This document shows positions 8,485 through 21,524 of a DNA stretch of 64,000 nt, piece by piece. A program made the position numbers and the translations under genes. The notes under the pieces were generated by a model. It was given only the letters and a program-made list of their open reading frames with translations, ran no database searches and was not told the DNA's origin. The DNA comes from Niallia sp. Man26 (lineage in GTDB: Bacteria > Bacillota > Bacilli > Bacillales > Cytobacillaceae). The stretch lies in assembly GCF_022049065.2 (NCBI RefSeq), contig NZ_CP095743.1, positions 3,363,001 to 3,427,000 on the forward strand. The letters run 5' to 3'. Each line of letters begins with the position of its first letter. Position 1 is the stretch's first letter.

Positions 8485-9378
8485 TTATTTATTGTTTACA
8501 GGCTCATCCTGCAATTTTTCAACTAAGTCTTTTAAGTACACTTCCAACTTGTCTTTAATATCATCACGTTTTAAAGCAAGCTCGATTGTTGTCTGAATGA
8601 AACCTAACTGCTCACCGACATCATAACGATTTCCTTCAAATTCGTAAGCGAACACTCGTTGGATTTGGTTAAGCTTTTCGATCGCATCTGTCAGCTGGAT
8701 TTCTCCGCCTGCACCTACTTCTTGCTCTTCAAGGAATCGGAAAATTTCCGGAGTGAAAATATAGCGGCCGATAATCGCTAAATTAGATGGAGCAGTACCT
8801 TGCTTTGGCTTCTCTACGAACTTTTTCACTTGGTGTCTTCTTCCAGAGTCGTCAATCGGATCAACAATACCATATCGGTGTGTCTCTGAATCAGGAACAA
8901 CTTGAACACCGATTACGGATGATAATGTTTGGTCATATTGGGACATAAGCTGACCTAAACATGGATCTTCACTATCGACAATATCATCGCCTAACAAGAC
9001 TGCAAATGGTTCATCACCGATGAAGTTTCTCGCACACCATACAGCATGACCTAAACCTTTCGGCTCTTTTTGACGAATATAGTGAATATCAACATTAGAT
9101 GATTCTTTCACTTTTTTAAGAAGGTCGAACTTCTCTTTCGCAACTAGGTTTTCTTCTAATTCCCAAGCGTTATCAAAATGGTCCTCAATCGCTCTTTTCC
9201 CTTTTCCAGTAACAATGATGATGTCTTCAATTCCAGAAGCAATTGCTTCTTCAACAATATATTGGATAGTCGGTTTGTCTACGATTGGTAGCATTTCCTT
9301 TGGCATCGCTTTTGTAGCTGGTAAAAATCTAGTTCCAAGACCTGCAGCTGGTATTATCGCTTTTCTTACTTTAGACAT
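8485..9378 (-). CDS. galU: UTP-glucose-1-phosphate uridylyltransferase (first copy)
   Basis: GalU makes UDP-glucose from glucose-1-phosphate and UTP, the precursor for glycolipid, teichoic acid glucosylation and UDP-galactose/UDP-glucuronate. The 297-aa protein has the nucleotidyltransferase signature [19 protein letters not shown] (about 13-31), then [18 protein letters not shown] (metal-binding Asp), FVEKP and [12 protein letters not shown]. The start is supported by TTTGGAGG nine bases upstream. It is transcribed alone, from a probable promoter at 9413-9441 to a strong terminator. A second GalU at 15949 shares long identical blocks, so this is a recent paralog pair. Copy 1 ends in a lysine- and glutamate-rich tail that differs from copy 2. 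Confidence 0.95.
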
Positions 9379-14546: not shown

Positions 14547-15305
14547 TCAGCCAGCTGCCGGCATTTTTCTTTTTCTGTTTTTTAAAACATAATAAAAAAA
14601 TTCCACATGACCGACTAAGTTACGCTTCCATAATCTCTTCGGCTCTTTCAGCATTCGATAAAGCCATTCAAGACGCAGCTTGCGAAAAAAAGCCGGGGCT
14701 CTTGTAACATTGCCTGACGAAAAGTCTAAAAATGCCCCGACTGCAAATGCCAGCGTGCAATTTAACCTTTCCCTGTTTTCAGCAATCCATTTTTCCTGTA
14801 TAGGCATCCCTAATCCTACTAGAAGGATGTCTGTTTGCTTGTCATTAATATCCGCAATAACATCAGCTACACTGCCGGAATCAAAATAGCCGTGCTGTTC
14901 TCCAACAAAGTTCAAATGAGGGAACTGCTGCTGTAATCTATGCAGAGCCGCCTCAGCAACACCAGGCTTTGCTCCGAGTAAATATACATTATATTGTCTA
15001 TCTTTATGACTTTTAAGCTTATTAAACAAAGCCGGAATAAAGTCTGTGCCGTTCAAGTTCTCCTTAAAAGAAAAGCCAAACATTTTAGCGCCAATTTCGA
15101 TCCCGATTCCGTCATTCAGCAAAAATTCACTGCTGTTAAGAAGGTTTAAGTATTCGTTATCCTTCTGGGCTAAGTTATAACAATGATCGTTCAGGAAAAA
15201 TACATTTGCTTTATCATATGCCTTTAATTTATCTGTCATTGCGGCAATCGCTTCATTTGTATGAAGAACATTCACCTCAATGTTTCCCATCCACTTCTTG
15301 TCCAT
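14547..15305 (-). CDS. tagA: N-acetylglucosaminyldiphosphoundecaprenol N-acetyl-beta-D-mannosaminyltransferase (WecG/TagA/CpsF family)
   Basis: TagA adds ManNAc from UDP-ManNAc to the GlcNAc-lipid made by TagO, the committed step of wall teichoic acid assembly. The 252-aa GT26 protein has FLNDHCYNLA, LLNDGIGIEIGAKMFG with the likely catalytic Asp (about residue 65), LNGTDF, YLLGAKPG, LVGLGMPIQEKWI and VGAFLDFSSGNVTRAP. The C-terminal basic/aromatic tail (WLYRMLKEPKRLWKR) is the membrane-binding appendage. The ATG at 15305 is preferred because AGGAG lies ten bases upstream; the ATG at 15329 has no binding site. It is monocistronic here, unlike the tagAB pair in B. subtilis. Confidence 0.93.
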   Translation of the reverse strand: MDKKWMGNIEVNVLHTNEAIAAMTDKLKAYDKANVFFLNDHCYNLAQKDNEYLNLLNSSEFLLNDGIGIEIGAKMFGFSFKENLNGTDFIPALFNKLKSHKDRQYNVYLLGAKPGVAEAALHRLQQQFPHLNFVGEQHGYFDSGSVADVIADINDKQTDILLVGLGMPIQEKWIAENRERLNCTLAFAVGAFLDFSSGNVTRAPAFFRKLRLEWLYRMLKEPKRLWKRNLVGHVEFFYYVLKNRKRKMPAAG

Positions 15306-15550
15306 CTCGTAATGTCTCCTGCCTTGCATAGTGTAGCTTCATTATATAAAAATTTAAGGCATGTTACAATTATCCCCATGGTTCTTTGCTGAAACTAGTC
15401 ATTTTGTTGGATTTTGTCGAAACTTTACCTCACTAAAAACTTTTAATATGTGAATAAAAAGTGATAAAATATACATGTGTTTTTAAAAGACTTTTCAAAC
15501 TAGCAATATGCTTGAACTTAAGACAGCAACAAAACAAATTATCCAAGATA

Positions 15551-15647
15551 AAGGCAAACCATCTGAAAAGATGGGACGCAAAGCTACAGATCTAAGGCAG
15601 CTCATACTGCTATGATGGCTGGGTCACCTTATGAGAATATAAGGAGG
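15551..15647 (+). ncRNA. Class I cyclic di-GMP riboswitch (GEMM-I) with translational expression platform
   Basis: The conserved GEMM-I blocks appear in order: GGCAAACC (15553-15560), a P2 hairpin CCATC/GATGG capped by a GAAA tetraloop (15565-15568), GGGACGCAAAGC (15573-15584), TCTAAG (15591-15596) and TATGA (15611-15615) forming an 11-nt-type tetraloop receptor around a GCAG/CTGC hairpin, then GGCTGGGT (15617-15624). P1 would pair AAGG (15551-15554) with CCTT (15627-15630). Downstream, CCTTAT (15627-15632) can instead pair with ATAAGG (15639-15644), covering the AAGGAGG ribosome site at 15641-15647 of the SinI-like gene. The two pairings are exclusive, so ligand-stabilised P1 should free the ribosome site (ON switch). 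No intrinsic terminator lies between. TAAAAT at 15465-15470 is a possible -10 for the transcript. Confidence 0.88.
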
Positions 15648-15657
15648 TTTTATTACG

Positions 15658-15813
15658 GTGTTAAATTTGTTACCAGTAAAAGAACTAGAAACGATAGATC
15701 CAGCAGAGCTAGATAGCGAGTGGGTTGAATTGGTGCTTGAAGCCAAACGCTTAGGACTTACTAGCAAACAAGTAAGTGCTTTTCTTTCCAATCAAAAACC
15801 AGATTTAAAATAG
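15658..15813 (+). CDS. SinI/SlrA-family anti-repressor (51 aa)
   Basis: The frame starts with GTG ten bases after AAGGAGG and encodes 51 residues. The core LDSEWVELVLEAKRLGLTSK (about residues 19-38) followed by QVSAFLSN matches the SinI helix that binds SinR; B. subtilis SinI has LDQEWVELMVEAKEANIS and then a similar FL-type end. The size is like SlrA (52 aa). Known family members bind SinR-type repressors and relieve repression of biofilm matrix genes. No partner sinR follows: the next gene is galU on the opposite strand. The leader is a c-di-GMP riboswitch, so its translation is predicted to respond to c-di-GMP. A TTG at 15667 is an alternative start. The identification rests on this short motif but the match is position-specific. 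Confidence 0.85.
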   Translation: MLNLLPVKELETIDPAELDSEWVELVLEAKRLGLTSKQVSAFLSNQKPDLK

Positions 15814-15948: not shown

Positions 15949-16854
15949 TTATCCATATTGCTCCACATTTGCCTTATTACCCTTCGTTTTCTCTATCCTG
16001 TCATGTAAAAACTTATAAACCTCATCTTTAATTTCTTCATTCTGAAGTGCAAAATCAATGGTCGTTTTTACAAAGCCAAGCTTTTCACCGACATCATATC
16101 TGTCTCCTTCAAAATCATAAGCAAAGACGCGCTGTATTTGATTCAGCTGCTGAATAGCGTCAGTCAACTGAATTTCTCCGCCTGCACCTGTTTTTTGGTT
16201 CTCTAAAAACATAAAAATTTCCGGTGTCAGGATATATCTGCCTAAAATCGCCAAATTCGATGGCGCAGTCCCTTTCTCCGGCTTCTCAACGAAATTCTTC
16301 ACTTGATATCTTCTGCCTGCTTTCTCTCCAGGATCAACAATGCCATATCGGTCTGTTTCCTCTTCTGGAACTTGCTGAACTCCAATGATGGAGGACTGAG
16401 TTTCCTCAAATTGATTAATCAGCTGCTTTAAGCACGGAACATCACTCTGCACAATGTCGTCTCCAAGGAGCACGGCAAAAGGTTCATCCCCAATGAAATT
16501 CCTTGCACACCAAACTGCATGCCCCAACCCTTTAGGCTCCTTTTGACGGATATAATGGATATCAGCCAAATTAGAGGCAAAGCGGACTTTATTCAGCAAA
16601 TCATCTTTGCCTTTTGCTTCAAGATTCCATTCCAAATCATTGGCACTGTCAAAATGATCCTCGATTGATCTTTTTCCTTTACCAGTGACAATAATAATGT
16701 CCTCAATTCCAGAAGCGACCGCTTCCTCTACTATGTACTGGATAGTCGGCTTGTCTACGATAGGAAGCATTTCCTTTGGCATTGCTTTTGTAGCAGGCAA
16801 AAATCTAGTTCCAAGTCCTGCTGCTGGTATGATAGCCTTCCTAATTTTCTTCAT
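15949..16854 (-). CDS. galU: UTP-glucose-1-phosphate uridylyltransferase (second copy)
   Basis: This second 301-aa UDP-glucose pyrophosphorylase makes the same product as the copy at 8485. The N-terminal 50 residues are almost identical between copies, including [19 protein letters not shown], and LLGDDIV, FVEKP and [12 protein letters not shown] are all intact, so both should be active. They differ mainly around residues 70-95 and in the C-terminal tail (here [14 protein letters not shown]). AGGAGG sits nine bases before ATG. The upstream gene on the same strand ends 72 nt away, so transcription may come from a local promoter or from read-through. Paralogs in bacilli (gtaB, yngB, ytdA) are often dedicated to different polymers or growth conditions. 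Confidence 0.94.
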
Positions 16855-19787: not shown

Positions 19788-21524
19788 TTATTGTTCGTAA
19801 GATGCGATTACTGCTTGGACTTTATCCATAACGCCAGCTTTCAGCTGAGCCAGCTTCCCTTGGCTTTCTTCAAGAGAAGAGCTAGTAACACTGAAATAGA
19901 ATTTAGCTTTTGGTTCCGTTCCTGATGGACGCAGGCAGAACCATGAGCCGTCTTCTAAATAGTATTTAATAACATTGGATTTTGGAAGATCGATTAGGAT
20001 TTCCTTCACATTCTCCGTACGTTTGCTTGTCTGATAATCTTCGATTGCAACAACTTGCAGCCCGCTCACTTCAGAAATAGGATCTTGACGGAATGTATCC
20101 ATAATGTAAGAGATTTGCTCCGCGCCATCTTTTCCTTTAAGAGTTAGAGATTCAAGTCCTTCTTGGTAGAAGCCGTATTTTTCAAAGATTGCAAGCAAGC
20201 CTTCAAACAATGTCATGCCTTTTGCTTTGTAATACGCCGCAACTTCTGCCGCAAAGATTGCTGACTGCACAGCATCTTTATCGCGTACGAAATCACCAAT
20301 CAAGTAACCATAGCTTTCCTCATATCCAAATAGGAAAGTATGCTGATTAGTTTGTTCAAATTCTTTGATTTTTTCTCCAATGAATTTGAAGCCAGTCAAT
20401 GTATCTAATGTTGGGATACCATATGCTTCTGCAATTGTTCTTCCAATTTCAGATGTTACGATTGTTTTAATAACAATACCATTTTCAGGCAGAATACCTT
20501 TTGCTTTTTTCTCTGACAGCAAGTACTCAAGCATTAACGCTCCTAATTGGTTACCAGTAAGAACTGTATATTCTCCTGTTAAGTCCTTCACAGCAACACC
20601 AAGGCGGTCTGCATCTGGATCTGTTCCTAAAAGAATATCTGCATCAATTTCTTTTCCATAACGGATAGCAATTTCAAATGCAGCATGCTCTTCCGGGTTT
20701 GGAGATTTTACTGTAGAGAAGTTTGCATCTGGCAGCTCTTGCTCCTTAACAACTGTTACATTGCCGAAGCCAAATGCATGTAGTCCTGCGCGCACAGGCT
20801 TATTCGCCGTACCGTGCAGCGGTGTGAAGACGATTTTCAAATCTTCCGCTTCTGGAAGCTTGTTAAGCTGAATAGTTTTCAGCTGTTCCACATAAGCTGC
20901 ATCAACGTCAGCTCCGATATATGTCAATAAGCCTTGTTCTAATAGCTCAGACTCTTCGAGCACTTCGATTGTAAGCTCATCTTCTACTGCGTTTACATAT
21001 TTAATAATCACATCTGCGGCTTCCGGAGGCAGCTGCCCACCATCTTCCCCATATGCTTTAAAGCCATTATATTCAGGCGGATTATGGCTTGCAGTGATAA
21101 CGACACCAGCAAATGTATTAAGGTGGCGCACTGCAAATGATAGCTCAGGTGTTGGGCGGAGCTCTTCGAATACATAGGATTTGATACCAAGCTTGCCCAC
21201 TACTTTTGCAACTTCCAACGCAAATTCTGGTGATTGGTGACGGGAGTCATATGCTACTGCCACACCGCGCTCCATCGCCTCTTTGCCTTGTTCTAGTATG
21301 TATTTTCCCAATCCTTGGGCAGCTTTACGCACTGTATAGATGTTCATGCGGTTGATGCCGGGGCCAAGTTCGCCGCGCATTCCGCCAGTGCCAAATTCTA
21401 AATGCTTGTAAAAGCTATCCTCGAGCAGTTTTTCAGATTTTTGCAATTCCAGCAATTGCGCTTTTAAATTTGGCTCTAAATCTTCAAAACTAGCCCATTT
21501 TGCTACTATATCTTGATAAACCAT
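19788..21524 (-). CDS. pgcA: Alpha-phosphoglucomutase / phosphomannomutase family
   Basis: This enzyme interconverts glucose-6-phosphate and glucose-1-phosphate, feeding both GalU enzymes of the window. The 578-aa protein is the long PgcA (YhxB) form. Motifs are [13 protein letters not shown] near residues 43-55, [14 protein letters not shown] with the phosphoserine (Ser about 144), the metal loop [10 protein letters not shown], and [11 protein letters not shown] for substrate recognition. The phosphate-binding loop [12 protein letters not shown] is near the C-terminus. The GGTGGG upstream of the ATG is about 12 bases away, a weak site. In B. subtilis this enzyme is needed for glucolipid and glucosylated teichoic acid, and for biofilm. 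Confidence 0.95.

Follow-up and report, generated by a model that had tools for sequence, protein, structure and literature searches.

Candidate c-di-GMP-I riboswitch control of SinI-domain anti-repressor genes in Niallia sp. Man26 and related Bacillales

By which route does c-di-GMP enter the control of matrix genes in Bacillus-type bacteria? A stretch of 64,000 nucleotides from Niallia sp. Man26 (contig NZ_CP095743.1, positions 3,363,001 to 3,427,000; hereafter, the window) bears on this question, as an initial annotation placed a c-di-GMP-I riboswitch in it directly before a 51-codon gene for a SinI/SlrA-type anti-repressor. If true, a riboswitch on such an anti-repressor would let the second messenger feed directly into the SinR switch, with no protein receptor, and would offer a role for the many GGDEF and EAL places of the genome (23 GGDEF; 15 EAL, of which 14 exceed the cut-off). 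The features on which the argument depends are as follows, in window coordinates.

15415 to 15421, plus strand: exact Spo0A-box core TGTCGAA (putative), upstream of the promoter-like site
15443 to 15470, plus strand: promoter-like hexamers TTAATA-16-TAAAAT, 9 of 12 positions, a weak consensus match
15543 to 15631, plus strand: c-di-GMP-I (GEMM-I) riboswitch aptamer (RF01051, 80.4 bits, cut-off 35, E 3.3e-14)
15551 to 15554, plus strand: 5' strand of the P1 switching helix, pairing with 15627-15630 (constrained fold, three of the four pairs forced)
15627 to 15644, plus strand: predicted anti-Shine-Dalgarno hairpin CCUUAUG-AGAA-UAUAAGG, which includes the 3' P1 strand (minimum free energy folds)
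15641 to 15647, plus strand: Shine-Dalgarno sequence (SD) AAGGAGG, nine bases after the aptamer end (from the sequence)
15658 to 15813, plus strand: SinI-domain gene of 51 codons with a GTG start, stop included (PF08671 and PDB match)

The aptamer covers the RF01051 covariance model in full (positions 1-87 of 87) and is the sole Rfam match to reach the gathering score in the 64-kb window. It begins 8 nt ahead of position 15551, where the initial annotation had placed its start. Its full-model score assigns it to the family, and the conserved core is present; the call of a c-di-GMP-I riboswitch before the gene is borne out.

The assignment of the gene product to the SinI/SlrA type was likewise upheld by the Pfam SinI model, which matched residues 18-43 of the 51-aa product at 41.8 bits (PF08671, cut-off 31.4). 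Sequence matches in the PDB, ranging from E 0.0019 to 0.014, were to SinI of B. subtilis (1b0n_B, E 0.0019) and to the C-terminal helices of SinR. The equivalog cut-off of the NCBIfam model NF046031, 'anti-repressor SinI', was missed (22.5 of 80 bits), and the product is therefore filed as a SinI-domain protein and not as a SinI equivalog. A homologue search with the 51-aa protein returned only three near relatives. Helices at residues 20-31 and 36-45 were predicted in a single-chain model with a mean pLDDT of 78.9, and a Foldseek search with this model gave nothing better than E 6.6, so that the structure route contributes nothing to the identification.

The window pair is flanked by a WecG/TagA-family gene (14547-15329, minus strand) and a nucleotidyltransferase gene (15949-16854, minus strand, GtaB/GalU-like by eye); neither immediate neighbor is sinR. 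The window copy is a paralogue of the sinR-adjacent copy, which is located elsewhere in the genome and has a riboswitch there too. In all, the genome contains 13 c-di-GMP-I riboswitches and six SinI-domain places; four of these places are in frames shorter than 100 aa, and three of the four have a riboswitch. A riboswitch-paired SinI paralogue (C1:520282) is flanked by two SinR-like genes, and the two SinR-like proteins of the genome match SinR (1b0n_A) at E 2.9e-38 and 3.2e-26. The SinI-domain protein of the window might target a partner other than SinR itself, either the second SinR-like protein or one tied to the TagA-family and nucleotidyltransferase neighbors. Its position away from sinR would fit such a partner, and with two SinR-like proteins and four small SinI-domain genes in one genome, specificities may be split. 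The SinI domain, with its invariant D and W, is nevertheless common to the window copy and the sinR-adjacent copies, and we regard a different partner as possible but rather doubtful. As for the surroundings, the nucleotidyltransferase genes at 8485-9378 and 15949-16854, both on the minus strand, resemble each other (GtaB/GalU-like), and a phosphoglucomutase gene (19788-21524) occupies the same cell-wall/UDP-glucose region as both.

Recurrence of the pair was assessed in 13 Niallia genomes, which together contained 118 c-di-GMP-I riboswitches and 70 SinI places at E <= 0.001 (60 over the Pfam cut-off). A riboswitch stood directly upstream on the same strand of 30 of the 43 small SinI places (frames shorter than 100 aa), and before none of the 27 longer, SinR-like SinI-domain frames. 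In the 30 pairs, the distance from the riboswitch end to the domain match was 42-78 nt, and one of the paired domains fell below the Pfam cut-off at 30.5 bits. Each of the 13 genomes had at least two riboswitch-SinI pairs, so the search of related genomes for the same leader-gene pair, proposed in the initial annotation as a check, was positive throughout the genus sample. Where a small SinI place adjoined a SinR-like place, a riboswitch was present in 11 of the 13 genomes; the sinR-linked small SinI places of G006 and G008 had none at the Rfam level.

The other 13 of the 43 small SinI places had no riboswitch at the Rfam level. A lenient search of 11 of them yielded three weak matches before unpaired SinI genes, all in G006 and G008.

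L078, 1352 to 1424: weak c-di-GMP-I match
L082, 440 to 525: weak c-di-GMP-I match
L080, 622 to 712, minus strand: weak c-di-GMP-I match

These three scored 18.9, 15.1 and 12.0 bits (E 0.0084, 0.057 and 0.28) and were on the expected strand, 52-79 nt upstream; the remaining places among the 11 had no riboswitch at the expected position. At one weak-match place the SinI domain scores 30.6 bits and so falls below the cut-off. The three matches are perhaps decayed riboswitches or relics, and the presence of decayed-looking copies in the genus invites the reading that the window pair, too, is a functionless duplicate in decay. We consider that very improbable, given the 80.4 bits of the window aptamer and the pattern of substitution in its gene: compared with four same-class orthologues of the genus, 7-13 of the 51 codons differ synonymously and 3-8 differ in the amino acid, synonymous differences being the more numerous in all four comparisons.

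Beyond the genus, the pair was sought with a strict DNA pattern that requires D-x-E-W and limited spacing and misses other variants. A named genome collection gave at least 120 matches, 80 of them among the matches listed; by title, nearly all of these 80 belong to Bacillus-type genera, including Neobacillus, Cytobacillus, Lederbergia, Peribacillus, Metabacillus and Thalassobacillus. A covariance model built from 16 genus aptamers confirmed the riboswitch in 75 of the 80, and PF08671 was matched at E <= 0.001 by 74 of the 79 products read from the listed loci. Five loci (L094, L110, L113, L128 and L142) were pattern matches with no covariance-model match, and a further one, L124, has a riboswitch before a 322-aa product that is, by reading, the one GGDEF match; all of these were excluded from the leader counts. 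Among the 74 named pairs retained, a SinR-like gene was found no more than 2 kb away in 54, and the match printed for each of these was downstream; in the other 20 there was none within that distance. In an even draw from the order, the pattern alone was found in 42 of 150 genomes and 27 of 84 genera, leaving 108 genomes without the strict pattern, and the reversed pattern matched nothing in the same 150 genomes. A draw of 121 genomes from the class gave seven with the pattern, including 4 of the 112 outside the order (pattern alone). Recurrence of the pair and the reversed-pattern controls led us to reject chance pairing. There was no c-di-GMP-I riboswitch match in 14 control genomes, B. subtilis among them.

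Two of the matches deserve separate mention. G180:C5:27666-30341, from outside the order, contains two riboswitch-SinI pattern matches, spaced by about 2.5 kb, whose leaders closely resemble each other and which may stem from a local duplication. L106, from a record titled Chryseobacterium sp. ISL-80, is a typical Bacillus-type riboswitch-sinI-sinR locus, and its label may be wrong.

How might the aptamer act on the gene? In the free fold of the window leader, the 3' P1 strand CCUUAU (15627-15632) is predicted to lie on the AUAAGG of the SD, with a probability of 0.99 for pairing between the P1 CC and the SD. Forcing P1 gives -33.5 kcal/mol compared with -37.2 kcal/mol for the free fold, a cost of 3.7 kcal/mol, and makes AAGGAGG more accessible, its mean unpaired probability rising from 0.16 to 0.71; the last two G of the SD remain paired with the early coding sequence even then. 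In silico, the expression platform of the window is accordingly predicted to be coupled to P1 through a strand that P1 and the SD have in common.

The same analysis was extended to 104 leaders (30 from the genus and 74 from the named collection), which represent about 101 places, L053/L093, L058/L112 and L064/L161 being shared by both sets. The SD was miscalled in three leaders (own_L069, L133 and L087), which were retained and counted as failures; the totals of 84, 77 and 99 leaders or upstream regions given here and below refer to distinct sequences, and the statistics throughout ignore common ancestry. The P1 CC paired with the SD at a probability above 0.5 in 77 of the 104 leaders and below it in 27. 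Set against shuffles of the linker, a comparison from which one leader was left out for too short a linker, 77 of 103 leaders compare with 38% of shuffles (Wilcoxon p 4e-14, without ancestry correction). When 84 distinct leaders were folded singly, the anti-SD hairpin formed in 75, with base pairs that vary at positions 3 to 10. Complementarity between the two strands was also conserved: in 77 leaders whose linker was sufficiently long, and in a fixed register, the two strands of one leader pair on average at 4.27 of 6 positions, compared with 3.88 for swapped strands (sd 0.10), a value of 4.27 being reached in 0 of 1000 swaps, and shifted registers gave at most 3.53. P1 could be forced in 101 of the 104 leaders, the other three being left unforced. 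SD exposure then rose by more than 0.1 in 63 of the 104 (14 of 30 genus, 49 of 74 named) and fell by more than 0.1 in eight (three genus, five named). Taken over the leaders, the pairing and SD-exposure data favor an ON switch that operates at translation.

The opposite sense, an OFF switch, or control through transcription or RNA stability instead of SD exposure, has some points on its side. Both senses occur among c-di-GMP riboswitches in Bacillus, one 'on' and one 'off' being named in a table in the available part of PMC7793685, and the eight leaders in which exposure drops would suit an OFF switch. Furthermore, another riboswitch of the same genome (L009, C1:1598985-1599075) is followed, by eye, by a hairpin with a T8 run and then a long open frame, and so appears to have a transcription-type platform in the same cell as the window pair. 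The window leader, however, has no T-run behind its hairpin, and a terminator scan of the plus strand found none, which led us to reject a transcription terminator as its platform. Considering also the excess of CC-SD pairing over linker shuffles and the 63 leaders in which exposure goes up, we judge these alternatives unlikely and retain the translational ON switch.

The region upstream of the aptamer contains TGTCGAA, an exact match to the core of the Spo0A-box consensus and a putative Spo0A box ahead of the riboswitch. The promoter-like site at 15443-15470 is one of five in the scanned region compared with a shuffle mean of 2.4 and is not evidence by itself. Across the loci, TGTCGAAA was more frequent than any other 8-mer within 250 nt upstream of the aptamer. 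TGTCGAA occurred in 43 of the 104 loci (19 of 30 genus, 24 of 74 named) compared with 2.2 in shuffles that preserve base content only. Among distinct upstream regions, 42 of 99 had the exact core and 57 lacked it, set against 78 of 2202 equally sized background windows; AT-rich background windows had it in 144 of 3550 cases, and the regions upstream of the other c-di-GMP-I riboswitches of the same genome in 1 of 10. With the box upstream here and in many relatives, the riboswitch need not replace Spo0A, and transcription by Spo0A~P may combine with translation under c-di-GMP.

Starting from membership of the riboswitch and SinI-domain families by model, recurrence of the pair, the alternative pairing in silico with its conserved complementarity, and enrichment of the box, we infer ligand binding, the direction of control, SinR binding, Spo0A action and the biofilm outcome in the following manner. 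With the ligand absent, the 3' P1 strand would sit on the AUAAGG of the SD and hinder ribosomes. c-di-GMP bound at the P1 junction would let P1 keep this strand, leaving the SD free, and the SinI-like protein would be made. This protein would bind SinR, or a paralogue of it, via the common helical hook and lift the repression of matrix genes. Transcription would require Spo0A~P, as the upstream box suggests, so that the output would amount to an AND of Spo0A~P and c-di-GMP. We think it likely that the locus is best explained in this way, as a SinI-type anti-repressor gene whose translation the riboswitch turns on. The original proposal that c-di-GMP acts on a SinI-type anti-repressor via RNA gains support from the riboswitch and domain calls, the recurrence, the SinR-like neighbors and the recurrent SD-sequestering platform. 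In the source bacterium and many relatives, c-di-GMP appears to switch on SinI-family proteins through the mRNA itself, and these small proteins are expected to release the biofilm brake. About as likely as not is a broader scheme for much of the order, in which the anti-repressor leader gates entry into biofilm, Spo0A~P deciding whether the mRNA is made and c-di-GMP whether it is translated; B. subtilis-like lineages would be without the RNA arm, and in genomes like the source the c-di-GMP arm would have expanded to several anti-repressor paralogues.

One claim of the initial annotation, that no case of this pairing had been described, did not survive. A 2015 paper on B. methanolicus MGA3 lists a putative c-di-GMP riboswitch upstream of sinI, as in the window, in a '(c-di-GMP)-sinI' row and one sentence (BMMGA3_08510, 'control of biofilm formation'; PMC4342826). 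In its available part, that listing concerns a single species and includes no mechanism, platform, Spo0A box or survey of relatives (PMC4342826). A literature search covering few subscription papers found no description of the platform, spread or Spo0A link of the pair among the matches listed; among these matches there is one printed mention of the pairing, which does not present it as a circuit that is conserved and widespread.

Known systems offer partial parallels. In B. subtilis, according to the available part of PMC3163267, a SinI-domain protein acts on SinR at sinI-sinR and sinI is under Spo0A control; the source genome has a close SinR too, and the window has the Spo0A-box core upstream. 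The window pair differs in having a predicted RNA input of c-di-GMP, which was not found in B. subtilis, and the B. subtilis wiring should be carried over to relatives with caution, if at all. In B. thuringiensis, a c-di-GMP 'on' riboswitch controls cbpA, as here a gene of surface or sessile life (PMC7423583, PMC7793685, as available in part); its target is a collagen-binding surface protein (PMC7423583), whereas that of the window riboswitch would be an anti-repressor of a master regulator. Expression of sinI in B. thuringiensis was up on an array through a c-di-GMP-making protein, as far as the available part of PMC7793685 reports.

Two further SinI loci of the source genome may be recorded. 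In a second riboswitch-SinI pair, C2:913738-913942, only a very short linker separates the aptamer from the SD, and a gene for a GGDEF diguanylate cyclase lies convergent to the pair. The small SinI-domain gene at C1:3480385 has no riboswitch and carries TTGTCGAA, a Spo0A-type core, upstream.
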